DNA from: a virus
Reading direction: 5' to 3' (one strand)
DNA: 29,550 nucleotides
Virus record (IMG/VR): IMGVR_UViG_3300017989_004200
Coordinates: 1-29,550 of that record
Shown: positions 3,777 through 27,812 of the stretch, one piece after another
Layout of the letters: each line of letters opens with the position of its first letter
How positions within the stretch are numbered: position 1 is the stretch's first letter
The notes under the pieces: generated by a model
Database searches by the model: none
What the model was told of the DNA's origin: nothing
Seen by the model: only the letters and a program-made list of their open reading frames with translations
Made by a program: the position numbers and the translations under genes

Positions 3777-3870
3777 CGACACAGAGGCGCAGAGAGACAG
3801 AGGAAGAACAGAGAATGCGTAGTCTGGCGGAACAACTCAGCCCCTCTGAGTCCTCTGCGGCCCTGTGTCG
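3777..3870. repeat. CACAGAG-family hairpin repeat (full element)
   Basis: The left arm at 3777-3794 (CGACACAGAGGCGCAGAG) and the right arm at 3853-3870 are complementary at 16 of 18 positions. Further CAGAG and CTCTG units lie between them. The same terminal sequence CGACACAG/CTGTGTCG ends the element at 27738-27812. The element covers the start codon and about the first 18 codons of the gene at 3815. Confidence 0.7.
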
Positions 3871-4255
3871 CGCCCGGCGGCTGGTGGGAGAGATGCTGGC
3901 CGCCCCGAACCGGCCGGCCGACGCGGTCAACCCCTGGTGCCGGCTCTGCCGCGACTGGATCGGCAACGTCGCCGGCGGGGGGGACGGGGAGGGCGACCCG
4001 GACGGCTGCCACGGCTTCGGCGGGGCGGCGCGGCCGCAGTGCTGGCGGATGGCCGCCGCCGGCGGCGGCGACACGGATCCCGAGACGGGGGAGCTGGTCG
4101 ATGCGCCGAGCGAGCTGAGCGACGCGGAGCACCCGGCGGCCGCGGGTTTCCCCCGGCCCGCGACGCCGGGCCACGAGGCGGACCCCGCGGTCTCCCCCCG
4201 CCGCGGGGCCGCCGTTGACGACGACGCGATGGGCGATCCGGTCCATCGCTCCTGA
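3815..4255 (+). CDS. Hypothetical protein whose N-terminus is encoded by a repeat
   Basis: The 146-residue frame starts at ATG 3815, inside a CACAGAG hairpin element. Residues 1 to about 18 (RSLAEQLSPSESSAAL) are translated from the repeat. Native sequence seems to begin near ARRLVGEML. A zinc-knuckle-like WCRLCRDW follows at about 41-48, with further Cys residues at GCHGF and CWRM. The C-terminal third is acidic and Pro-rich and looks disordered. I recognise no family. The gene sits in the early operon between two other small Cys-containing proteins. Confidence 0.6.
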   Translation: MRSLAEQLSPSESSAALCRARRLVGEMLAAPNRPADAVNPWCRLCRDWIGNVAGGGDGEGDPDGCHGFGGAARPQCWRMAAAGGGDTDPETGELVDAPSELSDAEHPAAAGFPRPATPGHEADPAVSPRRGAAVDDDAMGDPVHRS

Positions 4256-4350
4256 GTGTCCCGGAAACGTGCGAACCGACAACGGTGAATCACGGACGAG
4301 TTTTAACCCCCCTGGCGGCAGGGACGCGGCGCGGGCGGCGGGCGAGTTTT

Positions 4351-4379
4351 TTTCACCCCCGATGGCCAGGGGGGTGAAA
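4351..4379 (+). promoter_or_regulatory. Hairpin next to the ribosome site of the 4390 gene
   Basis: TTTCACCCCC (4351-4360) pairs perfectly with GGGGGTGAAA (4370-4379) across a 9-base loop. The right arm ends ten bases before the GTG at 4390 and overlaps the purine-rich AAAGGG that would serve as its ribosome site. The element is preceded, not followed, by a T-run, so it is not an ordinary rightward terminator. A translational control hairpin is the best guess. Confidence 0.5.
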
Positions 4380-4389
4380 GGGCCCGCTC

Positions 4390-4659
4390 GTGCCCATCGG
4401 ACGGACCGGCTGGAGCTGCCAGGAGGTCGCCGACGCCCGCGGCGTGGCGGTGACCAAGGCCACCACGACCCTGCGGCGATTCGACCGCCAGGCCCGGACC
4501 TTCCTCGCCGCCGCCCGGAGGCTTCAGCCGGACGTCCGGGCCGACCGCCTCGCCGAGCAGTTCGTCGCCATGCTGACCACCGGCGGGGCGCTGTCCCGGC
4601 TGGACCGCCGCCGGCTGCTGGATCACGTCCGGCGGCTGGCCGCCGGGGCGGACCCCTGA
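4390..4659 (+). CDS. Small HTH protein resembling sigma region 4
   Basis: The 89-residue protein starts at GTG 4390 with AAAGGG seven bases upstream. Residues 7-40 (GWSCQEVADARGVAVTKATT, then LRRFDRQARTFL) resemble the helix-turn-helix of sigma factor region 4 or a similar small phage regulator. The rest is helical (LAEQFVAMLTTGGALSRLDRRRLLDHVRRLAAG). No core-binding region 2 is present, so it is not a full sigma factor. It may be an early regulator or a DNA-binding accessory protein. The family assignment is by fold resemblance only. Confidence 0.6.
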   Translation: MPIGRTGWSCQEVADARGVAVTKATTTLRRFDRQARTFLAAARRLQPDVRADRLAEQFVAMLTTGGALSRLDRRRLLDHVRRLAAGADP

Positions 4660-4804
4660 AACCGACCCTCCCTCCGGCCGGCCCGGCCGCGGGGCATTTG
4701 GCCATGACGCAAGTCCTGCTTGTCCATCGACGCCGGGGCGTTCCCGGCGGATCTCTCCCGGATGTCCGCATGGCCGGGCCGGCCGGGCGGAGGGCAGCCA
4801 AGCC
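4660..4804. repeat. Long inverted repeat in a non-coding gap
   Basis: CCGGCCGGCCCGG at 4674-4686 has an exact reverse complement at 4774-4786. With flanking CCTCC/GGAGG the match extends to about 20 bp with a two-base internal mismatch. The 87-base interior contains a smaller ACGCC/GGCGT hairpin and no credible gene. It may form a large cruciform or RNA stem before the DUF1580-like gene. GGCCGGCC-based hairpins also precede the genes at 25918 and 27152. Confidence 0.55.
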
Positions 4805-5230
4805 ATGACGCAGGCGAAGGCACAGGACGAGGCCGCGGCCGGCCAGCCGGACCGGCTGGTGAGCGAGCAGATCATCCGGCTGAACGACGTGGCCGACTGG
4901 CTGCCGCGGCGGGCGCCGGGGCGGAAGGTCTCCCAGGTCACCCTCTGGCGGTGGGCGACCAAGGGCGTCCGCGGCGTCGACGGCCGGCGGGTCCGCCTGG
5001 AGACGATCAAGCTCGGCGGGCGGCGGTACACGTCGGTGGAGGCCGTCGAGCGCTTCGCCGCGGCCCTGGACGGCCGGGCGTGGAGGCGGAGGCGGGCGAA
5101 GCACACCGCCGGCCGGCGGCGGAGCGAGGCGGCCGCCGCGCGGGACCTGCGCCAGGCCGAGGAGGTCCTCGCCGAGGCCGGCTTCTACGACGATGACGAC
5201 GACCCCGCGGAGGATGCCGCGGGCGTGTGA
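4805..5230 (+). CDS. DUF1580-like DNA-binding protein (excisionase-like)
   Basis: This 141-residue protein resembles the DUF1580 family, small winged-HTH/MerR-like proteins known mainly from planctomycetes. The core is at about 24-86: IRLNDVADWLPRR, then VSQVTLWRWATKGVRG, then RLETIKLGGRRYTSVEAVERF, that is a helix-turn-helix followed by a strand and a helix as in excisionases. The C-terminus is basic and then acidic (YDDDDDPAEDAAGV). The start at ATG 4805 has GGAGGG about 11 bases upstream. A role in excision or early transcription would fit the context but is inference. This gene is the main pointer to the host group. Confidence 0.7.
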   Translation: MTQAKAQDEAAAGQPDRLVSEQIIRLNDVADWLPRRAPGRKVSQVTLWRWATKGVRGVDGRRVRLETIKLGGRRYTSVEAVERFAAALDGRAWRRRRAKHTAGRRRSEAAAARDLRQAEEVLAEAGFYDDDDDPAEDAAGV

Positions 5231-5266
5231 CGGACCACGGCCCGCCCGCGGCGGGCCTGCAAAGGG

Positions 5267-5282
5267 AAAGGAGTCCGACATG
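5267..5282 (+). promoter_or_regulatory. Recurrent translation-start cassette
   Basis: AAAGGAGTCCGACATG is a strong Shine-Dalgarno five bases ahead of the ATG at 5280. The identical 16 bases occur at 9144-9159 before the large ParB-domain gene, and near copies precede the genes at 8564, 16439, 27152, 27859 and 28791. It decides the start at 5280 over an in-frame upstream ATG at 5193. Confidence 0.65.
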
Positions 5283-6145: not shown

Positions 6146-6181
6146 GCGGCCCGGGCGGCAACGGAGTCCGAACGGTGCGGC

Positions 6182-6628
6182 ATGGAAGGATGCAGACAAC
6201 GCGCCGGGCCGCTGTTCGACGCCGCCGCGGTCGGCGCCCCCGCCCGCCGGCGGCAGGCCCACCAGGCCGCCGGGGCGGCGGTCGCCGACCGGCGGGTCAG
6301 CCGGCAGATCGCCGCCGTCCTGCGGGCCCTGGCCGAGCTGGGGCCGCTCACCCGCGAAGAGCTCGCCCGCCACACGGGGATCAAGGAGTCCAGCCTGTGC
6401 GGGCGGCTGCATCGGGCGGAATATCCCAACGCCGGCCGGCCGGCGTGGAAGCCCCGACTGGCCGCCCTGATCGACGGGACCGCCGAGGCGATCGCCGCCA
6501 GCGGGTGCAGGGTCAAACGGTACGCCATCACCGCCGCCGGCTACGCGGCCCGGCGGACCGGCCGCTGGCCCATCACAGAGGCCGCAGAGGAACAGAGGAC
6601 CAGAGATCGGGAGTCGAAGGATGAATGA
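6182..6628 (+). CDS. Winged-helix DNA-binding protein
   Basis: This is a 148-residue protein with a winged-helix/MarR-like core at about 43-120: ISRQ-type lead helix, then LGPLTREELARHTGIKESSL as the helix-turn-helix, a C-terminal helix (AALIDGTAEAIAASG) and a wing-like VKRYAITAAGY. It is probably a regulator or DNA-binding accessory protein. The last 18 residues (TEAAEEQRTRDRESKDE) are translated from a CACAGAG repeat. They look like an acquired tail rather than native sequence. The Shine-Dalgarno GGAG lies about 15 bases before ATG 6182, longer than usual. The gene overlaps the next by eight bases. Confidence 0.6.
   Translation: MEGCRQRAGPLFDAAAVGAPARRRQAHQAAGAAVADRRVSRQIAAVLRALAELGPLTREELARHTGIKESSLCGRLHRAEYPNAGRPAWKPRLAALIDGTAEAIAASGCRVKRYAITAAGYAARRTGRWPITEAAEEQRTRDRESKDE
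6574..6606 (+). repeat. CACAGAG-family half element (left arm)
   Basis: CACAGAG and CAGAG units recur through this stretch (CACAGAGGCCGCAGAGG, then AACAGAGG and ACCAGAG). A reverse-complement partner lies downstream at 6962-6979, so the two halves bracket the gene at 6621. The stretch is translated as the C-terminus of the winged-helix protein. Confidence 0.6.
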
Positions 6629-6959
6629 AGAGGACGTGGCCGATGCCGGCTTGGAGACGTGGGCCATCCTGGAGATCATGGGCCGCCATCGCGTGGCGGG
6701 GAAGATCTCCGAAGCCGTAATCGCCGGGGTCAAGCTGCTCCGGGTCGACGTGCCGGCCGTGGACGGCGACCCGGCCATGACGCAGTTCTACGGTGCCCAG
6801 GCGATCTACTGCCTGACGCCCGTCAGCGAGGAGCTCGGCCGCCGCGCCGCGGGGACGCTGCGGCCGTGCCCGATCCGTTACGTGGAGCTCCGGCACTTTC
6901 CCCAGCCCGCCCAGCCGGAGCTGTTCGACGACGCCGCCGAAACGGCAGAGGCCCTTTGA
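6621..6959 (+). CDS. Conserved phage protein of unknown function
   Basis: The 112-residue protein matches a widespread phage family I recognise by its pattern: ETWAILEIMGRHRVAGKISE near the N-terminus, then AGVKLLRVDVP, TQFYGAQAIYCLTPVSEE and a Pro-rich end. Members often carry a doubtful acetyltransferase label, and no function is established. It starts at ATG 6621, overlapping the winged-helix gene by eight bases. Most of it lies between the two inverted halves of a CACAGAG element (6574-6606 and 6962-6979). Confidence 0.7.
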   Translation: MNEEDVADAGLETWAILEIMGRHRVAGKISEAVIAGVKLLRVDVPAVDGDPAMTQFYGAQAIYCLTPVSEELGRRAAGTLRPCPIRYVELRHFPQPAQPELFDDAAETAEAL

Positions 6960-6961
6960 AT

Positions 6962-6979
6962 CTCTGGGGCTCTGTGTCG
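6962..6979. repeat. CACAGAG-family half element (right arm)
   Basis: CTCTGGGGCTCTGTGTCG is the right-arm form of the element and ends with the same CTGTGTCG as the full elements. It starts three bases after the stop of the gene at 6621. A further CTCTGGG unit lies at 6991-6997. Confidence 0.6.
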
Positions 6980-7013
6980 AATCGCTGTTTCTCTGGGATC
7001 GAAGGAGCGACCG

Positions 7014-7610: not shown

Positions 7611-7638
7611 TCCGCGGACGCAGAAGAAGAAACACCGT

Positions 7639-7724
7639 AGTCCACGGATCACACAAATTACACGAACGAGAACAGAAACGGATGTCACTGCTGTAATTCG
7701 TGCAATCCGTGTAATTCGTGGACT
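7639..7724. repeat. AATTACACGAA-family hairpin repeat (full element)
   Basis: A 28-base left arm (7639-7666) beginning AGTCCACG and a 28-base right arm (7697-7724) ending CGTGGACT are complementary at 23 of 28 positions. Each arm is built from ACACGAATTA-like units. The loop is 30 bases. It fills the gap between the DUF1508 gene and the metallopeptidase gene. Single-arm relatives lie at 8488-8517 and 9067-9084. Confidence 0.7.
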
Positions 7725-7736
7725 GAAAGGCCAACC

Positions 7737-8489
7737 ATGACACGCAAGAGCAAGGCGCGAACGAAGGTGCAGACCCCCAACGTCCTGGCCCTGGACGGCG
7801 CCGACTACGACGACGGCAAGCGGAGCCTGGCCGTCGCCCCGGCGGAGATGCGGCGGACGGCCCAGCAGATCATCGACGCGACCGACGAGCACCGGCACCT
7901 GAAGATGGGCGGGGCGTGCATCCTGCTCATGGTCGAGCGGGCCGCCGGCGTGGCCGGGAAGCTCACCGCCGGCGAGCGGGTGAGCATCGGCAAGGCGTGG
8001 AAGGCGCGGCCGCGGGACAAGGTCCTGGCCGGCCTGGCGGGCAAGGACGCCGCGCGGGTCGATTTCCTGATCAAGCTCTCCGGCGACTGGCTGGCCCTCG
8101 TCGCCGAGGCCGAGGGCGCCGAGGGCGCCCTGGGCAAGCTGGCGGCCCTGATCGACCACGAGCTCTGCCACTGCGGCGCGAAGGTCGCCGGGGAGTTCCT
8201 CGAGCCCGAGAAGGTCCCCGAGCGGCGCAGGGCCCTGGGCGAGGACCTGATCGAGGTCCGCGACGACTTCCGCGACGCCGAGCACCGCTGCCTCATCCGC
8301 TACTACGCCCGCACGAAGGACGGCGAGCTCACCTGGAAGCTCCGCAAGCACGACGTGGAGGAGTTCCACGGCGTGATCGCCCGCCGCGGGGCGTGGTGCA
8401 CGCCGCTATCAAAGCTGGTGGACGTGCTGCACAGCGGCCCGGCCGAGCCGCTGTTTGAGACCGCGGCCGAGGGCGAGGAAGCGGCCTGA
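7737..8489 (+). CDS. Putative phage metallopeptidase
   Basis: The 250-residue protein carries a zinc-metallopeptidase motif HELCH (141-145) in the context LIDHELCHC. The C-terminal block ELTWKLRKHDVEEFHGVIARRGAW is the hallmark of the phage putative-metallopeptidase family (PF18894 type). The residues between contribute a helical core. Substrate is unknown, and related proteins lie in early or accessory regions of many siphoviruses. The start is ATG 7737, with GAAAGG about 7 bases upstream. The active-site His/Glu/His are all present, so activity is plausible. Confidence 0.8.
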   Translation: MTRKSKARTKVQTPNVLALDGADYDDGKRSLAVAPAEMRRTAQQIIDATDEHRHLKMGGACILLMVERAAGVAGKLTAGERVSIGKAWKARPRDKVLAGLAGKDAARVDFLIKLSGDWLALVAEAEGAEGALGKLAALIDHELCHCGAKVAGEFLEPEKVPERRRALGEDLIEVRDDFRDAEHRCLIRYYARTKDGELTWKLRKHDVEEFHGVIARRGAWCTPLSKLVDVLHSGPAEPLFETAAEGEEAA

Positions 8490-8517
8490 TCCACGAATGA
8501 CACGAATTACACGGGTT
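8488..8517 (+). repeat. AATTACACGAA-family half element
   Basis: Three units of about 10 bases (ATCCACGAATG, ACACGAATT, ACACGGGTTG) start at the stop codon of the metallopeptidase gene. The orientation matches the left arm of the full element at 7639-7724. No clear right arm follows. Confidence 0.6.
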
Positions 8518-8563
8518 GCATGAATGGTCCGCACGATAAATGAGCACGTTCTAAGGGGCCGAC

Positions 8564-8836: not shown

Positions 8837-9066
8837 GCCAGCAGGACGCGACAGGCCCGTTGATCGCCTGCCTCCTGCGGCAGGACTACACGGTTCGCGT
8901 GCAAGCGTTCCACGGCGGCCTCGGCGTCGGCTGGCAGTATGTCTGCAAGCTGTTCCACAAGCGTAAATGTATCCACCACGCCAGCGCCGCCAGCGTGCAG
9001 GCGGCGGTATTGGCCGCGGCCACGGGGGCCGCCGCAGACGGCTGGCACCTCGACTGGGGCCGCTAG
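8833..9066 (+). CDS. Small hypothetical protein
   Basis: The 77-residue protein starts at ATG 8833, whose ATGA overlaps the upstream stop. It has a beta-rich N-terminal half (LIACLLRQDYTVRVQAFHGGLGVGW) and a helical C-terminal half (ASAASVQAAVLAAATGAAAD) ending GWHLDWGR. I recognise no family. The frame is open further upstream, but coupling to the neighbouring gene supports the 8833 start. Confidence 0.55.
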   Translation: MSQQDATGPLIACLLRQDYTVRVQAFHGGLGVGWQYVCKLFHKRKCIHHASAASVQAAVLAAATGAAADGWHLDWGR

Positions 9067-9084
9067 CACGAATTACACGAATTA
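9067..9084 (+). repeat. AATTACACGAA-family half element
   Basis: CACGAATTACACGAATTA begins at the TAG stop of the preceding gene. It is followed 16 bases later by a CACAGAG-family right arm, so both repeat families lie side by side in this gap. Confidence 0.6.
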
Positions 9085-9100
9085 AATGGAAACTCAGAAG

Positions 9101-9118
9101 CTCTGCGACTCTGTGTCG
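9101..9118. repeat. CACAGAG-family half element (right arm)
   Basis: CTCTGCGACTCTGTGTCG matches the right arms at 3853-3870 and 6962-6979. It stands upstream of the AAAGGAGTCCGAC start cassette of the ParB-domain gene at 9157. Confidence 0.6.
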
Positions 9119-9156
9119 AATCCGAATCCCTGGATCTCTGCGAAAAGGAGTCCGAC

Positions 9157-11604
9157 ATGACGACGGCAACAGCGACGAAGAAACGCCGGAGGAAAAAGCC
9201 GGCAGGCACGAAGCTGAAATGGCAGAAGTCCGGGCGGGCGCAGGTCGCCGACAGCATGGCCCAGATCGGCGACCTCGCTCCGGGGGCCTTGCGCTGGTGC
9301 ATCTCGCCCGTCAAACCAGGCAACCTGCACAGCGTCCACCTCAGCAGCGAGGAGCTGTTGGAGGAGGGCCGCGACCAGCTCTCCAATCAGTATGGACGAC
9401 TGCAGCCCTTTGCCACGCTGACCGACGCCAAGGCCGCCTGCCAGCGCGTGGAGGACGCCCTGCTGGCCGAGGCGGAGCGACAGAGCGCCGAGCTGCCTGG
9501 CCGGCAGGCAGGCACAGAGACGCAGAGCGACGGAGGGGTTGCCGGTTCTTGTTGGCGCCGGCCCTCCGCCAAGACCATGCTGGTCAAGATCGACGACATC
9601 GCCGTCGTCGCCGGCGCCAACGCCCGGACCGACTTCGCCGAGGCGCCCCTCCTGCAGTTGGCCGGCTCGATCAAGCGCGACGGGCTGCTCCAGCCGGTGG
9701 TGATCAACAAGACCCCGGCGGGCCTGGAGCTGATCGCCGGCGAGCGGCGGCTCCGCGCCGCCCGCGAGGCCGGGGAAAGCCACGTCGAGGCCCGCGTCTA
9801 CGATGGGCTCGACGCCGCGACGGCGGCGCGGATGCGATTGAGCGAGAACCTCAACCGCCGGGACCTCAACCACGTCGAGACCGCCCGGGCCCTGCGGGCC
9901 CTGGCCGACGCCGGGATGACCGTCGCGGAGATCGCCGCGGAGGTCCGAAAGAGCGACGACTACGTGCGGAAGCACCTGGACCTGACCCGGCTGGCGCCGG
10001 AGGTCGCCGATCTCCTCGCCGACGGCCGGCTGCCGGTCAAGCACGCCGAATTGATCTGCCGCGTGGGCGACCCGGCCCGGCAGCGCGAGCTGGCCGAGGA
10101 CGCGACCCGGCTGAGCTGGGACGCGAAGAAGAAGGCCTGGCGCGGCGTCAAGCGCGACTGGATGGGCCGGACCAATCGGAGGACCGACGAGCCCGCCCTG
10201 GACGATGGCGACTTCGTGCTGCCCATGGAGGACCTCCGCGACCGCGTCGAGGCGGTGATGCTCTCCCTGAGCAAGCACGGCTGGCCCAAGGGGGAGCCCT
10301 ACGCCGGCAGGCGGGCCTGCGAGGGCTGCCCGGACAACACGGCCACCTATGCCGATCAGCCGACGCTGTTCGCCGGGCTCGCCCCGCGCGGCTCGGCGAA
10401 GCGGGGCCACTGCACCAACGAGGCCTGCTACCGGGCCAAGGAGAAGGCCTGGGAGAAGGTCAAGGCGAAGCGCAAGGCCGCCGCCGAGGCCAAGCAGGCC
10501 GAGCGGATCAAGAAGGCCCGCAAGGCCGGCCTGGACGTCTGCGCCGCCTGCGGCAAGGTCGCCGACGCGGATGAGAGCTTCGACGACAGCAAGGACCGCA
10601 AGCTGTGCCCACAGTGCCTCAAGCGCTATCGGAAGGCCAGCGAGCGCTCGGGCGCCGGCCACGGCTACGACGCCGCGCAGAAGCGGATGAAGGAGATGCA
10701 GCGGAAGTGGCCCTGGACGGCCGAGCAGCGCTTCGCCGTGGCCCTGTACGACTACGGCGTGGCGGTCGGCCGGCGGCTGCACGACTGGGCGTTGCAGGTC
10801 CCCCACCTGCCCGACGACGCCGCCGACGTGGCCCTGTACCTGGTGGCCCGGTGGGACGACTGGACGGAGATCGGCGCCCGCGACCTGCCCGACCCGGCCG
10901 TCTTTCTGCAAGGCGGCTGGGAGGCGGCGGACCTCCGGCGCTGCCTCTGCCGGATCCTCGAATGCAGTTGCATGAACGACGCCGACCAGCCGGGCGTCTC
11001 GAACTGGCAGCCCGCAATCGCGAACGTCCCCCTGTCCGACGTGGCCCTGGCCGACATCGCCCTCCTGGAGGCCCTGGCGGGCCACTGGGGCGTCGAGCTG
11101 CCCGCCCGGCCCACGGCCGAGGGCGTCCAGGCCGAACAGGGGGTCGCCGAGCTGGCCCAGCGGATCGGGGCGATCGCCAAGAAGCCCGACGGGCCGGCGA
11201 AGCTGACCGAGCTGCTGGACGGGCTGGGCGACCACGCCCCGCTGGACGCGGTCCTGGCCGACCCGAAGCTGGCGAAATGGAAGCGGGCGGTGATCTCCGA
11301 ACACCGCACGCGGGCGGCGGGCGACCCGCGGGCGGCGGCCGCGGAACCCGCCGCCGCCGGCGAAGCCGACTCGGCGGCGCAGGGCGTGCCCCCCGGCAAG
11401 CGGACGCTGTACGAGCAGCAGGCGGCCCTGGTCCGCGGCGGCCGGCGGAGGGACGCCGTGCCGGTCATCGAGGCCTGCGAGGACCTCGAGCTGCTTCAAG
11501 AGGCCCTCGGCGCCGGCCTCACCGGCGACTGGCGGCGGGCGGCCGTGCGGAAGCGGATCGCCGCCCTGGGCGGAGAACCGGAAGCGGACCAGGCCGGCCA
11601 ATGA
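9157..11604 (+). CDS. Large ParB-domain protein with zinc-binding segment
   Basis: The 815-residue protein appears to be a composite. Residues 1-125 are a small module (TKLKWQKSGRAQVADSMAQI, ending in a helix) of a type otherwise seen as separate phage proteins. Residues 126-140 are encoded by a CACAGAG repeat. From about 141 a ParB/Spo0J region follows: MLVKIDDIAV, ELIAGERRLRAAREAG (the ParB nuclease/CTPase box), RLSENLNRRDLNHVETA, and an HTH, MTVAEIAAEVRKSDDYVRKH. Cysteines at CEGCPDN, CTNEACY, CAACGK and CPQCLKRY suggest one or two zinc sites near 385-490. The C-terminal 300 residues are helical. No ParA is nearby, so a role in phage DNA replication or transcription is as likely as partitioning. 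An internal ATG at 9577 could start a ParB-only product. Confidence 0.8.
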   Translation: MTTATATKKRRRKKPAGTKLKWQKSGRAQVADSMAQIGDLAPGALRWCISPVKPGNLHSVHLSSEELLEEGRDQLSNQYGRLQPFATLTDAKAACQRVEDALLAEAERQSAELPGRQAGTETQSDGGVAGSCWRRPSAKTMLVKIDDIAVVAGANARTDFAEAPLLQLAGSIKRDGLLQPVVINKTPAGLELIAGERRLRAAREAGESHVEARVYDGLDAATAARMRLSENLNRRDLNHVETARALRALADAGMTVAEIAAEVRKSDDYVRKHLDLTRLAPEVADLLADGRLPVKHAELICRVGDPARQRELAEDATRLSWDAKKKAWRGVKRDWMGRTNRRTDEPALDDGDFVLPMEDLRDRVEAVMLSLSKHGWPKGEPYAGRRACEGCPDNTATYADQPTLFAGLAPRGSAKRGHCTNEACYRAKEKAWEKVKAKRKAAAEAKQAERIKKARKAGLDVCAACGKVADADESFDDSKDRKLCPQCLKRYRKASERSGAGHGYDAAQKRMKEMQRKWPWTAEQRFAVALYDYGVAVGRRLHDWALQVPHLPDDAADVALYLVARWDDWTEIGARDLPDPAVFLQGGWEAADLRRCLCRILECSCMNDADQPGVSNWQPAIANVPLSDVALADIALLEALAGHWGVELPARPTAEGVQAEQGVAELAQRIGAIAKKPDGPAKLTELLDGLGDHAPLDAVLADPKLAKWKRAVISEHRTRAAGDPRAAAAEPAAAGEADSAAQGVPPGKRTLYEQQAALVRGGRRRDAVPVIEACEDLELLQEALGAGLTGDWRRAAVRKRIAALGGEPEADQAGQ
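9513..9527 (+). repeat. CACAGAG-family unit inside the ParB-domain gene
   Basis: CACAGAGACGCAGAG lies within the coding sequence at the junction between the N-terminal module and the ParB domain. It is preceded by a TGCCTG/CAGGCA hairpin at 9494-9510. It is read in frame as TETQS and neighbours. Confidence 0.6.
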
Positions 11605-16136: not shown

Positions 16137-16406
16137 ATGGGAAAGACGACGAAAAGAGACCGGATCGACACAGAGGCCGCAGAGGCCCAGAGAGGTCAGA
16201 AGAAGCGGCCGAAGAAGAAACGGCGGGCCCGGGACGAGGCGGCCGGCCGCGGGCGGCTGGCGAAGGCCGAGCTGCAGCGGGCGATCGCGGAGAAGTACTG
16301 CCGGCGGTGCAAGAGCCTGGGCCGGTTCGCCATCACCGGCACCAAGGGCCGCGTGCGGCACCTGCGGTGCCTGGTCTGCGGCCAGGCCGAGCAGATCGCC
16401 GTCTGA
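16137..16406 (+). CDS. Small zinc-ribbon protein with repeat-encoded N-terminus
   Basis: The 89-residue protein has a C-terminal zinc ribbon, YCRRCKSLGRF then LRCLVCGQAEQI, about 25 residues apart. The first 30 residues are basic and charged. Residues 9-20 (DRIDTEAAEAQR) are translated from a CACAGAG repeat at 16166-16194. It is coupled to the terminase gene by a short gap with AAGGGAG upstream of ATG 16137. It may bind nucleic acid, but no family is recognised. Confidence 0.6.
   Translation: MGKTTKRDRIDTEAAEAQRGQKKRPKKKRRARDEAAGRGRLAKAELQRAIAEKYCRRCKSLGRFAITGTKGRVRHLRCLVCGQAEQIAV
16166..16194 (+). repeat. CACAGAG-family half element in coding sequence
   Basis: CGACACAGAG begins the element, followed by GCCGCAGAGG and CCCAGAGAGG. 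It has the same left-arm orientation as 3777-3794 and lies within the zinc-ribbon gene at 16137. Confidence 0.6.
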
Positions 16407-16407: not shown

Positions 16408-16424
16408 CACAGAGGGCGCAGAGG
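16408..16424 (+). repeat. CACAGAG-family half element
   Basis: CACAGAGGGCGCAGAGG begins two bases after the stop of the zinc-ribbon gene. It is followed by AACGGAGATTTGAC, a form of the start cassette, and then ATG 16439. Confidence 0.6.
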
Positions 16425-16438
16425 AACGGAGATTTGAC

Positions 16439-18090: not shown

Positions 18091-18903
18091 ATGCAACTGT
18101 TCGAGAAATACCGCCCGGCGACCCTGGATGGGATCGTCGGCCAGGAGGCCGCGGTCGGGCTGATCCGCCGGATCATCGGCCGGAGCGGCTGGGACCGGGA
18201 CGCCCTGTGGATCGAGGGCGACACGGGCACGGGCAAGACCTCCACCGCCCAGGCCCTCGCGCGGGAGCTGGACTGCCCGCCGGGGAGCTGGGGGTACGAG
18301 GAGATCGACGGCGACAAGTGCACGGTGGACGAGGTCCGCCGGCTGGACGAGACGGTCGCCCGCTGCGGCCTGTTCGCCGAGGAGTGGCGGGTCGTCATCG
18401 TCAACGAGGCCCACGCCATGACGGCCCGGGCCATCCAGGCCTGGCTGACGTTCCTGGAGAAGCTCCCCGCCCGCTGGCTGATCGTGTTCACCACGACCGA
18501 GTCGCTGAGGGACCTGTTCGGCAACTTCAATCACGCCTTCGCCGGGCGGGTCAAGGAGATCCGCCTGACGAAGTTCGGGCTGGGCGAGGCCTTCGGGAAG
18601 CGGCTGCGGGAGATCGCCAGGGCCGAGGGCCTCGACGGCCGGCGGCCGGCGGACTACGTCCGGCTGGTGCAGGCCAACCGCGGGGACTTCCGCCGCTGCC
18701 TGCAGCTCGTGGAGATGGGCGAGATGGTCCGCCCCAGCCGGCTGACGGAGGCCCAGCAGAAGGCCGTCAAGAACCTCGTGCGGCGGACCAAGGCCCGCAA
18801 GCGGCGGAAGGCCGCCGGCGGCGGCAAGAAGGCCAAGGCCGGGACGAAGGCGAAGGCGACGAAGGCCCGCAAGGGCGCGAAGGCAGGGAGGCCGAAGAAA
18901 TGA
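18091..18903 (+). CDS. Clamp-loader-like AAA+ ATPase with histone-H1-like tail
   Basis: The 270-residue protein resembles DnaX/RFC small-subunit ATPases. It opens with the clamp-loader signature LFEKYRPATLDGIVGQE. Walker A is GDTGTGKT (43-50). The Walker B position reads VVIVNEAHAM (101-110), with Asn for the usual Asp. IVFTTTE (131-137) is the sensor 1 region, and the helical lid contains NRGDFRRCLQLVEMGEM. The last 50 residues are a Lys/Ala tail (KKAKAGTKAKATKARKGAKA) resembling histone H1 and probably DNA-binding. It is shorter than bacterial DnaX and has no collar partner beside it. It could load the host sliding clamp or remodel DNA. Ribosome site GGAAGGAGAG and a long structured leader precede ATG 18091. 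It overlaps the radical SAM gene by four bases. Confidence 0.8.
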   Translation: MQLFEKYRPATLDGIVGQEAAVGLIRRIIGRSGWDRDALWIEGDTGTGKTSTAQALARELDCPPGSWGYEEIDGDKCTVDEVRRLDETVARCGLFAEEWRVVIVNEAHAMTARAIQAWLTFLEKLPARWLIVFTTTESLRDLFGNFNHAFAGRVKEIRLTKFGLGEAFGKRLREIARAEGLDGRRPADYVRLVQANRGDFRRCLQLVEMGEMVRPSRLTEAQQKAVKNLVRRTKARKRRKAAGGGKKAKAGTKAKATKARKGAKAGRPKK

Positions 18904-19679
18904 AGATCAGCAGGGCGATCTACGAGCCGCGCGGGGCCGCCGCGGAGTACTCCCCCCTGGCGGTGAACCTCTACCGCGGCTGCGGGCACGGCTGCGGGTA
19001 CTGCTACGCCCCGGCCTGCCTGCGGACGGAGCGGGCGAGCTTCCACGGCTCGCCCGCACCGCGGACGGGGATCCTCGACGCCCTGCGGCGCGACGCGGGG
19101 CGGCTCCGCGGGGATCCCCGCCCGGTGCTGCTGTGCTTCACCTGCGACCCCTACCAGCCCCTGGAGGCCGAGGTCGGCCTGACCCGCCGGGCGGTGGAGG
19201 TCCTCGCCGCCGCCGGGGCGGCCGTCCGCATCCTGACCAAGAACGCCCCCCTGGCGATCGCCCGCGACGTGGACGCGCTGACCGCGGCCGGCGTCGACTT
19301 CGGCCAGACGATCATCTTCACGTCCGAGGCCGACCGCCGGCGGTGGGAGCCGCACGCCGCGCCGATCGCGGAGCGGATCGGGGCGATGGAGGCGGCCCGG
19401 GCGGCGGGCCTGCGGACCTGGCTGAGCCTCGAGCCGGTGATCGACCCCGCCCAGGCCCTGGACGTGATCGACCGGCTCGCCCCGACCACCGACCGGATCA
19501 TGGTCGGCAAGCTCAATCACGACCCCCGGCGGGAGCGGGCCGTGGACTGGCGGGCCTTCCTGGCCGAGGCCCTCCGGCGCCTGACCCGCCACGGCTGCGG
19601 CTACACCATCAAGGACGCCCTGTGGCGGTACGCCGACGCGGAGATCCGCGGGGCGTGGCCGCGGACGGCCGGCGGGTAG
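18900..19679 (+). CDS. Radical SAM enzyme, SplB/Rv2578c-like
   Basis: The 259-residue protein has a radical SAM cluster motif C28-GHG-C32-GY-C35, in the context YRGCGHGCGYCYAP. LLCFTCDPYQPLE and AAVRILTKN are characteristic of SplB/Rv2578c-type proteins. TWLSLEPVIDP, IMVGKLNHDP and GCGYTIKDALW follow. Its closest functional model is spore photoproduct lyase, a DNA repair enzyme, but the actual substrate is unknown. It is translationally coupled (ATGA) to the clamp-loader-like ATPase, suggesting joint action on phage DNA, perhaps repair or a base modification step. That link is inference. Confidence 0.8.
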   Translation: MKISRAIYEPRGAAAEYSPLAVNLYRGCGHGCGYCYAPACLRTERASFHGSPAPRTGILDALRRDAGRLRGDPRPVLLCFTCDPYQPLEAEVGLTRRAVEVLAAAGAAVRILTKNAPLAIARDVDALTAAGVDFGQTIIFTSEADRRRWEPHAAPIAERIGAMEAARAAGLRTWLSLEPVIDPAQALDVIDRLAPTTDRIMVGKLNHDPRRERAVDWRAFLAEALRRLTRHGCGYTIKDALWRYADAEIRGAWPRTAGG

Positions 19680-20984: not shown

Positions 20985-21011
20985 CTCTGGGGCCCCTGCG
21001 GCTCTGTATCG
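20985..21011. repeat. CACAGAG-family half element (right arm)
   Basis: CTCTGGGGCCCCTGCGG followed by CTCTGTATCG matches the right-arm pattern with one change in the terminal CTGTGTCG. No matching left arm was found close by. Confidence 0.5.
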
Positions 21012-21215: not shown

Positions 21216-21226
21216 GGGAGCCGGGC

Positions 21227-21487
21227 GTGACGACGCCGACGCCGACGGAAGTGGACGCCCTCGACGACTACTCCTACGCCCAGATGGCCAAGCTGTGCCG
21301 GCGGGCGATCGTCACCCTCACCGCATCCCCCGACCAGACCGTCAAGCTCCCCGACGGGAGAGAGTTCACCGTCCAGGACCTCGACCGCCTCCGGCGGGCC
21401 GAGCAGACCTACCGGCGCCTGGCGGCCGAGGCCGCCGAGACGACCCGCCGGGCGGGGGTCGCCGAATTCGGAGCGCCGACCGCATGA
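21227..21487 (+). CDS. gpW-like head-tail connector protein
   Basis: The 86-residue protein starts at GTG 21227, with GGGAG seven bases upstream. It resembles lambda gpW: a helix (YSYAQMAKLCRRAIVTLTAS), a short beta hairpin (QTVKLPDGREFT) and a second helix (VQDLDRLRRAEQTYRRLAAE). Its position right before the portal gene is that of gpW in lambda-like phages. The frame is open back to 21131, but that region encodes the terminator hairpin and is very unlikely to be translated. It overlaps the portal gene by four bases (ATGA). Confidence 0.75.
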   Translation: MTTPTPTEVDALDDYSYAQMAKLCRRAIVTLTASPDQTVKLPDGREFTVQDLDRLRRAEQTYRRLAAEAAETTRRAGVAEFGAPTA

Positions 21488-23163
21488 GCCACTGGCTGGA
21501 CAGCGCGATCGCCGCGGTCGCCCCGCAGTGGGCCGCCCGCCGGGCCCAGGCCCGGCTGGCCCTGGCCGCGGCGACGGCGCGGGCGACGGCGCTTCAGCAG
21601 CTCGCCGCCGCCGGCGGACTCCATCCGGAGAGTCGCTACTTCGACGCCTCCCGACAGGACCGCACCAGCAAGGACTGGGGCAAGATCGACACGTCGGCCG
21701 ACGGGTCGATCCTCGGGGAGATGACCCTGGCCAACGCCCGGGCGCGGGCCGCCGTGGTCAACGACTGGGCGGCGCGCGGGATCGTCAGCGCCTTCCGCCG
21801 GCACGTCGTGGGGATCGGGATCACGCCGCGGTCGGCCGCGCGCGACCCGGAGACCGGCGAGGAAACGGAGGCCTTCGCCGCCTTCAACAAGCGGATCGAC
21901 TGGCTGTACTACCGATGGGCCCGCCGGCCGGAGCTGTGCGACACCGAACGGCGCAAGAACATCCCCGAGATCGACGGGCTGGCGGTCAGCGAGCTGTGGA
22001 CCGTCGGCCAGGCCCTCTGCGTCCTGAACTTCACCCCCCGCCGCGGCCAGGTCGGCCTGCACGTCCAGATGTTCGAGCCCGAGCAGCTCGACGGGCTGCT
22101 GACGAAGAACGACGACACCGGATACGAGATCCGAAACGGCATCGAGATCGACGAGGCCGGGGCGGCCGTGGCCTATTGGGTGCACACCGGCAAGCACCCC
22201 GCGGAGGCCTACGGCAGCAGCGCCGAGCGGATCCCCGCCCGCCGCGTCCTGCACGTCATGCGCCAGGAGCGGGTCCGGCAGACCCACGGCTGGACGCAGC
22301 TCTGCGCGGCCCTGGAGGACATCTACCAGCTCAAGGGCTACAAGCAGGCCGAGGCCGTCGCCAAGCGGATCGAGGCCTGCATCGGCCTGCGCCTGCGGCA
22401 CGAGCAGTGGTACAGCGGCGAGGGCGAGGCCACGATGCCCGGCCTGGGCGCCGCCCCCCCGACCGGGGGCAGCAGCACCGACGCCCGCGGCAACACCAAG
22501 GCCCGCCTGGAGCCGGGGATGATCCTGGACGCCGGGCCGGGCCGCTACTGGGACTCCCTCGCCCCCCAGCGCCCGGGCGCCCAGTACGAGCAGTACACCG
22601 ACCGGCAGGTCCAGCAGATCGCCGCCGCCGCCGGCAGCGACTCGGCGCACGTGCAACGCAACTTCGCCAAGGGCAACTTCTCCTCGCAACGCCAGGGGGC
22701 GCTGGAGCACCGGCGGGAGACGGACCCGGTCCAGATGAATCTGCTGGTGGACCTGTGGGCCCGCCCGCGGCGGGAGCGGTTCAAGGTCCTCGCCGTCCTG
22801 CAGGGGCTCGTGGAGGCCCCGGGGTTCTTCGAGGACCCGATCCTCATGGCCGCCTACCTGGAGGACGACTGGCAGGGGCCGCCCGTGCCGTGGGTGGACC
22901 CGAAGAACCAGGCGACGGCCACCGACCAGGCCCTGCGCGACGGGCTGACCACGCTGCGGAGCCAGGCGAACCTGCTGGGGGGCGACTGGCGCGAGCTGAT
23001 CGACCAGCGGGCCCGCGAGGCCGAGTACGCCCGCCGGCGCGGGGTGAGCCTGAGCTGGATCAGCGGGGCCGCGGAGGCGCCGGGCGAGACGGAGGAAGAA
23101 GACGCGGCGGAAGAACGCGACACAGAGGAACAGAGGGACGAAGAGGAGCTCGTCCATGCCTGA
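21484..23163 (+). CDS. Portal protein, lambda gpB family
   Basis: The 559-residue protein forms the dodecameric portal at the capsid vertex through which DNA is packaged. Family features include the N-terminal YFDASRQDRTSKDWGKIDTS, ANARARAAVVNDWAARGIVS, a FNKRIDWLYYRWARRPELCD stem region, LAVSELWTVGQALCVLNFTP, VLHVMRQERVRQTHGWTQLC (clip/wing) and YEQYTDRQVQQIAAAAGSDS. Length is typical. The C-terminus ends in an acidic tail (EEEDAAEERDTEEQRDEEE) partly encoded by a CACAGAG repeat at 23118-23136. The start at ATG 21484 is coupled to the gpW-like gene. It overlaps the protease gene by eight bases. Confidence 0.9.
   Translation: MSHWLDSAIAAVAPQWAARRAQARLALAAATARATALQQLAAAGGLHPESRYFDASRQDRTSKDWGKIDTSADGSILGEMTLANARARAAVVNDWAARGIVSAFRRHVVGIGITPRSAARDPETGEETEAFAAFNKRIDWLYYRWARRPELCDTERRKNIPEIDGLAVSELWTVGQALCVLNFTPRRGQVGLHVQMFEPEQLDGLLTKNDDTGYEIRNGIEIDEAGAAVAYWVHTGKHPAEAYGSSAERIPARRVLHVMRQERVRQTHGWTQLCAALEDIYQLKGYKQAEAVAKRIEACIGLRLRHEQWYSGEGEATMPGLGAAPPTGGSSTDARGNTKARLEPGMILDAGPGRYWDSLAPQRPGAQYEQYTDRQVQQIAAAAGSDSAHVQRNFAKGNFSSQRQGALEHRRETDPVQMNLLVDLWARPRRERFKVLAVLQGLVEAPGFFEDPILMAAYLEDDWQGPPVPWVDPKNQATATDQALRDGLTTLRSQANLLGGDWRELIDQRAREAEYARRRGVSLSWISGAAEAPGETEEEDAAEERDTEEQRDEEELVHA
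23118..23136 (+). repeat. CACAGAG-family half element at the portal 3' end
   Basis: CGACACAGAGGAACAGAGG lies inside the last codons of the portal gene and is read as RDTEEQR. It is in left-arm orientation. Confidence 0.6.
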
Positions 23164-24121: not shown

Positions 24122-24132
24122 AGGAGCGAGCG

Positions 24133-25767
24133 ATGAAACTGAACGAGGCGCAGATCAAGTACCTCCGGAGCCTGGGCCTGGACGCCGAGGCCGAGGAGGC
24201 GGAGACCACCGAGTTCGTCGAGGGGCTCAACGACGACCAGCGGGCGTTCCTGAAGTCCCTGGCCCAGGCGCCGGAGACGCCGGAGCCGAGCGAGACCCCG
24301 CCGCCGGCGGACGGGCCGGAGGCCGAGGGCGAGCGGGAGACGCCGCCGGCGGCCCCGACGGCCGAGCAGGTCGCCGAGACCGTCCGGGCCGCCGCCAAGG
24401 CCGAGCGGCAGCGGGTCGCCCAGATCCGCTCCATCGCCGGGACGATGGGGCTGGGGGAGGAGTGGATCGCCCGGCAGATCGGCGGGGACTTCACGATCGA
24501 CCAGGTCCGCGAGGCGGCGATCAGCCAGGCGGCGGCCAACGGCCGGCCGATCCCCATCGGGGCCGGCAGCCGCGCCGAGGTCGGCGCCGACCGCGGCCAG
24601 GTCGCCACGGCCGCCGCGATCATGGACGCCATCCTGATCCGCGGGAACCACCCGCTGCTGGAGACCGACGAGCTCACCGGCCTGCCCGTCGCCGAGAGGC
24701 CGCGCAAGCCGCACGAGCTGGCCGGGCGCTGGCGGGGCAAGGCCCTGTTCCAGATGGCCGAGATGTTCCTGCAGATGGCCGGGCGGGACACGACCGGCAT
24801 GAGCCGGCCGCAGATCGCCCAGGCCGCCTTCATCGGCGGCCCGCGGATCCAGTTCCGCGACCAGGCGGGGATGCTCACCACCAGCGACTTCCCGTACCTG
24901 CTGGCCAGCGCCCAGGGCAAGGCCATGCAGGCGCGGTACGTCATGTACCCGGCGCAGTGGCGGGCCTTCTGCGACGTGGTCACCGCCCCGGACTTCAAGA
25001 CGCAGAAGCTCATCCGCCTGGGCGACTTCCCGACCCTGCCGGAGATCAAGGAGGCCGGGGAGTACGGCTACGTCAAGCTGTCCGAGGAGCAGGAGACCTG
25101 GGCCCTGGCCAAGCGGGGGCACATCTTCCCGCTGAGCTGGGAGGCGATCGTCAACGACGACCTGGGGGCCTTCGGCCGACTGCTGGTGGCCCAGGGCCGG
25201 GCGGCGGCCATGACCGACGACGTGGTCGCCTTCGCCATCGTCACCGGCAACCCGGCGATGGGCGACGGGAACAACCTGTTCGACGCGGCGAACCACTCCA
25301 ACCTCGCCCAGGGCGGGGACATCGGCGCCCCGTCGATCGCGACGTACAACGCGATGGAGCTGGCCATGCTCAGCCAGCAGGGCGTGGGCAGCAACGACTA
25401 CATCATGGCCATCCCGGCCGTGATCCTCGCGGCCGTGGCCCTGAAGGGGACGGTGAGCACGCTGAATCAGTCCCAGGACGACCCGACCGCCAGCAGCGAC
25501 GTGCGGCGGGCGGCCAACATCTGGCGCGACCGGCTGAACCCGGTCCACCACCCGCTGCTGGACGCCAGCAGCTCGACGGCCTGGTACGTCTGCACCGACC
25601 CGGCCGTGCAGCCGGCGGCGGTCCTGGGAAGGCTGGAGGGCTACGTCGGCCCGCAGCTCGCCCAGGAGACCGGCTTCGACGCGGACGTCCGGCGGTACAA
25701 GGTCACCCACGTCGTGGCCGCCAAGGCCACCGACTGGCGGCTCTGGTACAAGAACGCCGGCGCGTAA
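24133..25767 (+). CDS. Major capsid protein with N-terminal scaffold-like region
   Basis: The 544-residue protein has a helical charged N-terminal region (residues 1 to about 150; MKLNEAQIKYLRSLGLDAEA, acidic/Pro linker, AAKAERQRVAQIRSIAGTMG), typical of a delta/scaffold domain removed or retained after assembly. An HK97-fold capsid domain of the Mu-gpT/large-MCP kind follows: GGPRIQFRDQAGMLTTSDFP, YPAQWRAFCDVVTAPDFKTQ, GHIFPLSWEAIVNDDLGAFG, NPVHHPLLDASSSTAWYVCT and YKVTHVVAAKATDWRLWYKN. The start is ATG 24133, with GAAGGAG seven bases upstream, rather than the earlier in-frame ATG codons at 24061 or 24118. Gene order and size support the call. Confidence 0.85.
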   Translation: MKLNEAQIKYLRSLGLDAEAEEAETTEFVEGLNDDQRAFLKSLAQAPETPEPSETPPPADGPEAEGERETPPAAPTAEQVAETVRAAAKAERQRVAQIRSIAGTMGLGEEWIARQIGGDFTIDQVREAAISQAAANGRPIPIGAGSRAEVGADRGQVATAAAIMDAILIRGNHPLLETDELTGLPVAERPRKPHELAGRWRGKALFQMAEMFLQMAGRDTTGMSRPQIAQAAFIGGPRIQFRDQAGMLTTSDFPYLLASAQGKAMQARYVMYPAQWRAFCDVVTAPDFKTQKLIRLGDFPTLPEIKEAGEYGYVKLSEEQETWALAKRGHIFPLSWEAIVNDDLGAFGRLLVAQGRAAAMTDDVVAFAIVTGNPAMGDGNNLFDAANHSNLAQGGDIGAPSIATYNAMELAMLSQQGVGSNDYIMAIPAVILAAVALKGTVSTLNQSQDDPTASSDVRRAANIWRDRLNPVHHPLLDASSSTAWYVCTDPAVQPAAVLGRLEGYVGPQLAQETGFDADVRRYKVTHVVAAKATDWRLWYKNAGA

Positions 25768-25768
25768 C

Positions 25769-25800
25769 GCAGAGGTCTCAGAGAATCAGAGGAACAGAGG
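25769..25800 (+). repeat. CACAGAG-family half element
   Basis: CGCAGAGG, TCTCAGAGA, ATCAGAGG and AACAGAGG follow one another at a period of about eight to nine bases, directly after the capsid gene stop. They are in left-arm orientation and are followed by CTGAT-ATG, a start-cassette-like ending. Confidence 0.6.
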
Positions 25801-25871
25801 CTGATATGACCGGACCCGCCGCCGGACCGGCGGGCGCGACGGCCGACAGCGTGAGGCCGGCCCCAAACGGC

Positions 25872-25895
25872 CCGGCCCCGACGGACCGGGGCCGG
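25872..25895 (+). promoter_or_regulatory. GC hairpin before the decoration protein gene
   Basis: CCGGCCCCG (25872-25880) pairs with CGGGGCCGG (25887-25895) across a six-base loop. It ends 22 bases before ATG 25918 and has no T-tract. It is one of several GGCC-rich hairpins upstream of genes in this window. Confidence 0.5.
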
Positions 25896-25917
25896 ACACG
25901 GATCAAGGACGATCGAC

Positions 25918-27042
25918 ATGGGAACCACGTACAAGGGCAAGGGCGACATCCTCGAGTGGACCAACGGCACCGGCAGCGACGTGTCGGCCGACGAAGTGAT
26001 CGTGCTGGCGGGCTACCTGGTGGCCGTGGCCCTGGCGGACATCGCCAACGGCGCCTCCGGCAGCGTCAGCATCATGGGCAAGCACGAGCTGAGCGCCACC
26101 GCCGCGGAGGCCTGGGGCCAGGGCACGCAGCTCTACTGGAACACCTCCACGAGCAAGCTGACGGCCGACGAGACGGCGGGCTACCCCCGGGCCGGGATCG
26201 CCGCGGCGGCCAAGGCCGCCAGCGCGACCACCGCCGTCGTCCGCCTCGGCGTGCACGCCGCCGGCGGCGGGGCGGCGGCCGGCGGGGCGGCCGACTGGCA
26301 GGAGTCCGTCGCCGACAGCCTGGACTTCAGCGCCGCCGAGCCGGCGGCGCCGTCGGTCGGCGACCGGTACATGAACACCGGCAGCGGCGCCAGCAGCGAG
26401 ACCGCCCAGACGGTCGCGGCCAATGAGCTGCTGGTCTGGAACGGGACGGACTGGACCCGGATCACCCCCACCGAGGGGATGATGGTCCTGACCGAGGACG
26501 ACGGGGTCCTGTACGGCTTCAACGGGGCGAGCTGGGTCGCCCTGGGGACCCTGGCCAACATCAAGGACCTGACCGACGGCGGCAACGCCGACGCCCTCCA
26601 CGTCCACGACACGCCGGGCATCACCGACTACGCCGTCGGCAAGGCCAAGCTCGCCGAGCAGGCGGCGGACGGCGACGGCAGCGTGTTCGTGCCGTTCACC
26701 CTGGAGTTCGACGTGGACGCCTCCGAGGGCAACATGGAGTCGGCCGCCGTGCCGGCGGGCATCGTCATGGTCGTGCTGCACGCCCACGGCTACAAGAAGA
26801 CGGCCAACGGCGCGCACGGCGACGATCAGATCGCCCTGCAGGACGGCGACGGCAACCAGATCTGCATCGCCGAGCTGAACGGGGTCAACGACACCGTTCA
26901 CTTCGACTTCGCCGGCCCCCCGGACGCCACGCACCGGGAGATCCCCGCCACCAAGAAGCTCACGGTCGTTCCCGGCGAGAACGGGGCCGGCCAGGGCGAC
27001 GCGAAGATCCTGGTGGAATGCGCCTGGAAGACCGCGCCGTAA
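25918..27042 (+). CDS. Decoration/cement protein fused to DUF2793-like module
   Basis: The 374-residue protein begins with a DUF2190-like capsid-cement domain (residues 1 to about 112; VSADEVIVLAGYLVAVALAD, NGASGSVSIMGKHELSATAA, GAQLYWNT-type end). After a Gly/Ala linker a DUF2793-like module (DWQESVADSLDFSAAEPAAP, NELLVWNGTDWTRITPTEGM, VLYGFNGASWVAL) follows at about 127-225. The last 150 residues are a beta-rich domain (FTLEFDVDASEGNMESAAVP, DTVHFDFAGPP) of unknown kind. DUF2190 proteins typically stabilise capsids and average around 110 residues, so this is an extended form, perhaps displaying a receptor-binding domain on the head. The start at ATG 25918 has GGACGATCGAC upstream, a weak form of the start cassette. 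Confidence 0.7.
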   Translation: MGTTYKGKGDILEWTNGTGSDVSADEVIVLAGYLVAVALADIANGASGSVSIMGKHELSATAAEAWGQGTQLYWNTSTSKLTADETAGYPRAGIAAAAKAASATTAVVRLGVHAAGGGAAAGGAADWQESVADSLDFSAAEPAAPSVGDRYMNTGSGASSETAQTVAANELLVWNGTDWTRITPTEGMMVLTEDDGVLYGFNGASWVALGTLANIKDLTDGGNADALHVHDTPGITDYAVGKAKLAEQAADGDGSVFVPFTLEFDVDASEGNMESAAVPAGIVMVVLHAHGYKKTANGAHGDDQIALQDGDGNQICIAELNGVNDTVHFDFAGPPDATHREIPATKKLTVVPGENGAGQGDAKILVECAWKTAP

Positions 27043-27056
27043 GCCTGAGTCGAACC

Positions 27057-27120
27057 GCCGCCGTCACGGACGGAACCCGGCCGGCCGGGAGAACGGACTC
27101 GCCCGGCCGGCCGCGGCGGC
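27057..27120 (+). promoter_or_regulatory. Large GC hairpin before the lipoprotein gene
   Basis: An inner perfect 11-bp stem, GGCCGGCCGGG (27079-27089) with CCCGGCCGGCC (27102-27112), carries a 12-base loop. An outer 7-bp stem, GCCGCCG (27057-27063) with CGGCGGC (27114-27120), encloses it. There is no T-tract. It fills the gap after the decoration gene and could stabilise or process the mRNA, or reduce read-through. Confidence 0.55.
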
Positions 27121-27151
27121 TGGCACACCCGAGTCCGGAAAGGAGTCTGCG

Positions 27152-27712
27152 ATGCGAAGTCTCATGTGGATCCTGGGGGCGGCGCTGCTGGCGATCGGCC
27201 TGGTTCTTTGCAGCACCGGCTGCAGCCACAACCTGCTCAAGACGGACGGCGGGGAGGTCCTCCAGCGGACCTCCGACGCCTCCGTCGCGGTCCTGGACGT
27301 GGACGGCAACCAGTCGGCCGCCTACCACGGCGTCGGGCCGACCCTGGTCAAGCAGGACAACGAGGGCACGTGGGCGACGCAGCCGGGGCCGCTGACGATC
27401 CTGACCTTTCCGGTGCCCACCGGCGGCCTGGCGTACATCATCAGCCCCAACGACACGGTGATGAAGGACGTCCAGTACACGCCGGCGCCGGCCGCCGGCG
27501 AGCCCGCCTTCAGCGCCGCGGAGATCTCCACGCTGGTCTCCGAGCCCCTCAAGCAGCACGTGCAGGCGGTGACCGTGGCCCTGGCGGCCCTGGAAGGCAT
27601 GACGAAGGCGGAGGCGGAGGCGACGGTGAGGAAATGGGAGGAGGCCGGGAAGGTCTCCGCCGGCGTCCTGGAGCTGCTGCGGGCGGTCCTGCCGCTGCTC
27701 TTCGCGCCGTAG
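27152..27712 (+). CDS. Phage-encoded lipoprotein, unknown function
   Basis: The 186-residue protein has an N-terminal signal (MRSLMWILGAALLAIGLVLC, residues 1-20) and a lipobox-like STGC, Cys24. After cleavage it would be lipidated and held in the envelope. The mature part contains ASVAVLDVDGNQSAAYHGVG, LTILTFPVPTGGLAYIISPN and a helical C-terminus (AEISTLVSEPLKQHVQAVTV, ending VLELLRAVLPLLFAP). I recognise no family. Prophage lipoproteins often block superinfection, while lysis operons use lipoproteins as outer spanins, but this one is long for an Rz1-type spanin. The start at ATG 27152 has AAAGGAGTCTGCG upstream. Confidence 0.65.
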   Translation: MRSLMWILGAALLAIGLVLCSTGCSHNLLKTDGGEVLQRTSDASVAVLDVDGNQSAAYHGVGPTLVKQDNEGTWATQPGPLTILTFPVPTGGLAYIISPNDTVMKDVQYTPAPAAGEPAFSAAEISTLVSEPLKQHVQAVTVALAALEGMTKAEAEATVRKWEEAGKVSAGVLELLRAVLPLLFAP

Positions 27713-27737
27713 GGCGACAGAGGACAGAAACAGCGTG

Positions 27738-27812
27738 CGACACAGAGACTCAGAGATTCAGAGTTGTTGTTTCAAGAAAAAGAAAGCTCTGCGCCTCTGC
27801 GCCTCTGTGTCG
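27738..27812. repeat. CACAGAG-family hairpin repeat (full element)
   Basis: The 26-base left arm (27738-27763) and right arm (27787-27812) pair at 20 of 26 positions. All six mismatches lie in the three-base spacers between CTCTG/CAGAG units. The ends are CGACACAGAG and CTCTGTGTCG. It stands between the lipoprotein and holin genes and is followed by a CTCTGCATCC tail and the start cassette of the holin. Confidence 0.75.

Follow-up and report, generated by a model that had tools for sequence, protein, structure and literature searches.

Short-period CACAGAG arrays at the gene junctions of a virus genome, and their counterparts in other phages and bacterial chromosomes

The closest described counterparts of the repeats considered here are the STRR sequences of filamentous cyanobacteria, usually built of 7 bp repeats, which form hairpins between genes; their function is unknown, and it has been suggested that they may stabilise transcripts or couple translation (PMC2670836). 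The heptamers GGGAATC of Xanthomonas and GGGGA(T/C)T of Nostoc are intergenic, lie close to ORFs and are in some cases inverted; they were not found on plasmids, and phages go unmentioned in the text of the paper that describes them (PMC4692102). The TAACTGA direct repeats of Beggiatoaceae form heptamer arrays near start codons and are scattered over phyla (PMC4679880), while REPINs are interspersed, extragenic inverted pairs that form hairpins (PMC3116915). Among phage repeats, the SAS/ESAS sequences and stoperators of mycobacteriophages are single conserved, oriented motifs, with the positions of ESAS kept per gene family (PMC3203893, PMC9283540). Repeats of the STRR type have no established function or copying mechanism, and in environmental phages such sequences can lead assembly, motif discovery and the search for operators astray.

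The DNA analysed here in its entire length, hereafter the window, is a 29.55 kb virus record with a G+C content of 71%, which codes for a lambda-type terminase gpA, a portal, an S49 head protease, a capsid, a cement protein, ParB-like proteins and a DUF1580 protein. An initial annotation, in which the dispersed CAGAG-unit loci of the window were noticed, had called it a prophage; given that this is a virus record and that no integrase was found among the proteins scanned, we do not retain the term. At its left edge (282-2300, minus strand) lies a gene for an OLD-like ATPase with a TOPRIM domain (Pfam AAA_15, OLD-like_TOPRIM), possibly a defence gene. A divergent pair of helix-turn-helix genes (2575-3051, minus strand; 3105-3422, plus strand) is laid out in a manner resembling a phage repressor/Cro switch, and at 18091-19679 the gene for a clamp-loader-like ATPase precedes that for a radical SAM / photolyase-like protein.

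CACAGAG occurs 10 times in the window against 2.8 expected, a count reached in none of 100 shuffles, and CGACACAG occurs 8 times against 1.0 expected. CAGAG units at a spacing of 6-12 nt form 12 clusters with a total of 33 units, where 200 dinucleotide shuffles give 0.55 (maximum 3). As the total number of CAGAG words (65) is about the shuffle mean (62.9), the signal resides in the regular spacing and not in the word. The pitch is 8, in 15 of the 21 short spacings, or 9; the unit of the arrays is an 8-letter DNA unit, CAGAG plus spacer, situated at gene joints. Eight clusters are forward and four reverse, most of them between codirectional genes, and by a hand-made gene list 9 of the 11 CACAGAG loci are no more than 50 nt away from the start or stop of a gene, where 2.65 would be expected (p ~1.5e-4).

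Ten of the eleven loci listed in the initial annotation coincide with such clusters; the exception, at 20985-21011 (minus strand), is a weak, degenerate copy with two CTCTG 17 nt apart and the end CTGTATCG. The two full hairpins that it had recognized are both real, and they are the only complete ones of the CACAGAG family in the window. The hairpin at 3777-3870 (no strand assigned), with CAGAG at 3782, 3790, 3798 and 3809, CTCTG at 3844 and 3853, and the ends CGACACAG/CTGTGTCG, begins 20 nt past the stop at 3757 and overlaps with what may be the start of ORF 3815-4255. The hairpin at 27738-27812 (no strand assigned) has three units per arm and lies between 27712 and 27859; no intrinsic terminator pattern was found at it. 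Most other copies are single arms without a partner. Beyond gene ends, these are the two units at 6962-6979 (minus strand), 3 nt past the stop at 6959; the two at 9101-9118 (minus strand), between 9066 and 9157; the two at 16408-16424 (plus strand), 2 nt past the stop at 16406; and the four at 25769-25800 (plus strand), 2 nt past the stop of the capsid gene at 25767. Within ORFs, all on the plus strand, are a four-unit array devoid of structure at 6574-6606, in the 3' end of ORF 6182-6628 and 15 nt before the next start at 6621; two units at 9513-9527 in ORF 9157-11604, upstream of its ParB domain; three units at 16166-16194, which encode RIDTEAAEAQRG at the N-terminus of a small Zn-ribbon gene (16137-16406); and two units at 23118-23136 in the 3' end of the portal gene (21484-23163). 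The in-ORF arrays at 6574, 9513, 16166 and 23118, together with one in the portal 3' end of another phage (L021), share in five of five cases the frame ACA GAG, coding for Thr-Glu, an agreement noticed post hoc whose chance is 1 in 81.

CACAGAG is one of several families of 7-10 nt units with a like layout, a point that had escaped the initial annotation, and a second family of the same class resides in the window itself. It comprises a CACGGAT/ACACGAATT hairpin of period 9 at 7643-7727 (no strand assigned; fold z -4.7), between 7610 and 7737, and two ACACGAATT-type arrays on the plus strand, at 8492-8520 immediately past the stop at 8489 and at 9067-9086 past the stop at 9066, the latter stacked with the CAGAG arm at 9101.

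When folded as RNA and compared with shuffles, the hairpins at 27738-27812 and 3777-3870 gave z values of -5.0 and -2.9, and two single arms, at +0.4 and -2.0, showed little or no structure. In the 27738 hairpin every mismatch falls in the spacers and none in the units, from which selection on the paired units had been deduced. We compared the arms of 42 host hairpins, out of 61 collected, from five genome groups and with a pitch of 8 throughout: spacers matched between own arms at 172 of 252 positions, against 180.2 for arms shuffled within group (p for at least the observed value, 0.99). Since own arms match no better than shuffled ones, the spacer mismatches give no support for selection on pairing, and conservation of the CAGAG core was excluded as evidence because the hairpins had been collected by that very core. 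With most window copies being single arms as well, the deduction is not supported, and we reject an RNA selected through covariation. We also reject a known structured RNA, as a search of Rfam gave no match. At the CSMAG loci L064-L160, own-arm spacers are less alike than shuffled ones (30 versus 38.7 matching positions of 66), a deficit that might reflect avoidance of perfect palindromes or their loss in assembly.

CACAGAG arrays are also present in other contigs with clear head or tail genes (L017, L021, L256, L269 and L288). In L021 the array lies in the 3' end of the portal gene, as in the window, despite only distant similarity between the two portal proteins. The closest phages by terminase, L008 (66% identity), L009 and L010 (both 59%), have no CAGAG clusters in their 22 kb each, and the orthologues of the Zn-ribbon gene, which follows the terminase, lack the RIDTEAAEAQRG stretch in all three; based on these comparisons, the arrays were gained in the lineage of the window or lost in the others. 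Searches of INPHARED (known phages) and PLSDB (plasmids) yielded no meaningful match, a terminase search of genome contigs found nothing, and the array strings were not found in the literature searched.

A 20-letter array pattern was matched by 110 chromosomal stretches in genome assemblies, where by our estimate ~0.5 are expected by chance; these are mostly from Phycisphaerae and other Planctomycetota, with further matches in a gammaproteobacterial MAG, Cloacimonadota, Ramlibacter, Verrucomicrobia and Chloroflexi. Within the class around a Phycisphaerales MAG, a three-unit pattern occurs in 62 of 298 genomes and its reversed control in 6; the distribution is patchy, with up to 126 copies in a single genome. 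The host copies are commonly inward-facing inverted pairs, mostly 40-200 bp long, whose outer ends are defined as CGACACAG or ACCACAG. By a looser two-unit pattern the window holds 0.34 per kb against 0.13 in G004, the densest host genome searched, a comparison biased by the choice of the window for its arrays. Of 150 genomes of the class, 18 also contain a heptamer of the TTGGTC type, but this census proves little because the reversed control occurs in a comparable number. Terminase relatives, of up to 47% identity, are encoded by 19 genomes out of 397 from the same class, so that the window phage has a likely, if not proven, host of the Phycisphaerae type. The initial annotation had envisaged a mobile or functional element class, either host-derived or a phage-only RNA signal. 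Many copies in host-type chromosomes and none in the closest terminase relatives favor the former, and the host copies exclude the latter. Of the two outcomes that it had named as adverse, an absence of further copies in hosts or relatives is contradicted by those in chromosomes and other phages, and an absence of covariation in the arms is what we found for their spacers. We likewise reject a sequence-specific or conserved phage signal, as close relatives are without arrays and hosts carry them.

In genome G006 the hairpin sits in a 300-400 bp non-coding repeat found at at least 10 unrelated places with ~91% identity; this repeat (L168-L177) consists of several consecutive arrays of short period, namely CGTACCAAAG, GGGACAACC and a CACAGAG hairpin. 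A clean empty site with target duplication was sought in a comparison of presence and absence among hosts and none was seen; the best such site lies in diverged intergenic DNA and offers no precise junction. In one orthologous host pair both arms have a pitch of 8 in one species and of 9 in the other; either the entire element could have been replaced, or one arm could have been corrected by its partner.

We then compared a group of related phages (L288/L293, L263, L278, L242 and L238) that are mostly 84-88% identical over their aligned parts. A motif-free scan recovered 13-15 arrays of period 7-10 in L288 and L263 and none in shuffles. Their units, some of them of 7 bp, include CACAGAG, GGTAATTT, TTGGTCN, GAGAACT, CTTGTTA, TTTGTAA and CGCAGATCAG. 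At six orthologous junctions (J1, J2, J3, J5, J6 and J7) different 7-10 nt unit families, mostly as hairpins, occupy the same slot. J1 holds an CGCAGATC palindrome in L242, a CACAGAG hairpin in L288 and L238 and a GAGAAC array in L278; J2 holds the CGCAGATC palindrome in L242, a GGTAATT hairpin in L288 and L238 and a TTTGTAA hairpin in L278; J3 holds a CACAGAG hairpin in L242 and L278 and a GGTAATT hairpin in L288; and J5, J6 and J7 show more swaps, with TTGGTC hairpins. An automatic count gave 16 pairs with different arrays, but as this repeats the same junctions and includes a false case, J4, we restrict the claim to the six junctions checked by eye. The CACAGAG family is retained between phages at two further sites (D and E), and at two others (B and C) the phages differ in presence or absence. 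The arrays thus lie at gene junctions and ends, come and go between related phages and are replaceable at one junction by another family, and their exact sequence does not seem to matter. The portal of L288 has only weak matches, in Planctomycetota. A tandem repeat whose step is ~61 bp distinguishes the near-identical contigs L293 (~991-1480) and L288 (6604-8083).

Based on these observations we propose, with a probability of about 0.55, that the CACAGAG loci represent intergenic arrays of the STRR kind with a short period of 8-9 nt, turning over at junctions and common to hosts and phages. These loci, which often come as inverted pairs folding into hairpins, would belong to a large set of arrays with different 7-10 nt units that bacterial chromosomes, here of the Phycisphaerae-type class, share with phages. 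New arrays may arise in junctions as copies of ones located elsewhere in the gene pool of host or phage, with slippage and recombination altering unit number and pitch and deletion removing old arrays, and purifying selection against coding damage would restrict them to junctions and tolerant protein ends. Their exact letters probably have no phage-specific role, and any benefit would be one generic to an intergenic hairpin, such as partial termination, protection of RNA or separation of the translation of neighbours. Conserved arrays, namely those at sites D and E and at the portal end in the window and L021, could count against this proposal if they mean function, and the failure to see a clean empty site with a target duplication also weighs against it. 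The swaps constitute a natural experiment: hairpins kept while their letters change would place function in the fold, and mere coming and going would mark tolerated clutter.

Under a rival account, in our judgement rather unlikely, the phage junction hairpins are selected as RNA structures for mRNA processing, protection or partial termination, with the unit families as interchangeable raw material. Full hairpins do fold much more strongly than shuffled sequence, in most cases with z -5 to -7, and each of the six junctions bears an array, mostly a hairpin, in every phage compared; yet in L288 arrays stand at ~13 places within 14 kb and 14 ORFs, a density that might itself suggest such a role but makes arrays so common that their co-occurrence at a junction is uninformative. 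Most window loci, moreover, are single arms, the two folded having little structure, the arm spacers lack covariation, presence varies at sites B and C, and the terminator pattern is absent at 27738. The related and equally tentative idea that position and fold are selected at hairpin slots in some phage genomes, with sequences exchanged among families of a host-shared pool, would, if true, render these slots a modular, sequence-independent punctuation of phage operons.

More doubtful still is a REPIN- or MITE-like non-autonomous transposon, mobilized by a transposase in trans and carried along from host to phage. Such an element would fit the defined outer ends of the inverted pairs, the many copies at unrelated places and the patchy distribution, but the arms are degenerate arrays and not a conserved 16-mer, no target duplication was seen and the layout is common to many unrelated unit families. 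As for the transposase-like partner that the initial annotation had named, the REP-associated Y1 transposase (PF01797) has no match in the array-bearing G033 and G063, assemblies that may be incomplete, and Y1-rich genomes are often free of arrays. No relation between the two was seen, as judged from listed per-genome counts and not by a formal correlation; the evidence does not call for a Y1 transposase. We consider it highly improbable that the loci are sequence-specific sites for a phage or host regulator, be it at operators or stoperators or an RNA-binding protein: the conserved core, the regular 8 nt pitch and positions close to gene starts and stops would suit such sites, but the arrays take both orientations between codirectional genes, close relatives are without them, orthologous junctions hold other sequences and the same arrays occur in unrelated chromosomes.

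Returning to the described systems, the SAS/ESAS sequences and stoperators resemble the present arrays as dispersed repeats at phage gene junctions. However, the window arrays are not, as stoperators are, asymmetric 13-mers oriented with transcription, their clusters being 8 forward and 4 reverse; nor are they, as SAS/ESAS are, a conserved motif just upstream of starts that is kept with the gene family, given that L008-L010 are without arrays and that families swap at orthologous junctions. A conserved REP core and a RAYT partner characterize REPINs, and for the arrays neither was found; in place of a conserved palindromic core in both arms there are degenerate arms with variable spacers and a pitch that differs between orthologues. 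The TAACTGA repeats stand mostly in one orientation upstream of starts, with a single inverted case, whereas the window arrays occur in both orientations and as hairpins. The Xanthomonas and Nostoc heptamers are alike in being intergenic short units near ORFs, some of them inverted, and differ in their unit. The STRR sequences come closest: like them, the window arrays consist of short tandem units that are mainly intergenic, and they form hairpins between genes (in the window at two loci of the CACAGAG family and one of the ACACGAATT family, with others in further phages and in hosts). They differ in that the CACAGAG pitch is 8 or 9 and not 7 bp, families of 7 and 10 nt being found in related phages, and in that they reside in Phycisphaerae-type chromosomes and in phages, are often inverted pairs and exchange families at orthologous junctions. 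As their unit departs from the usual 7 bp, we assign the arrays to a variant of the STRR and not to its members.
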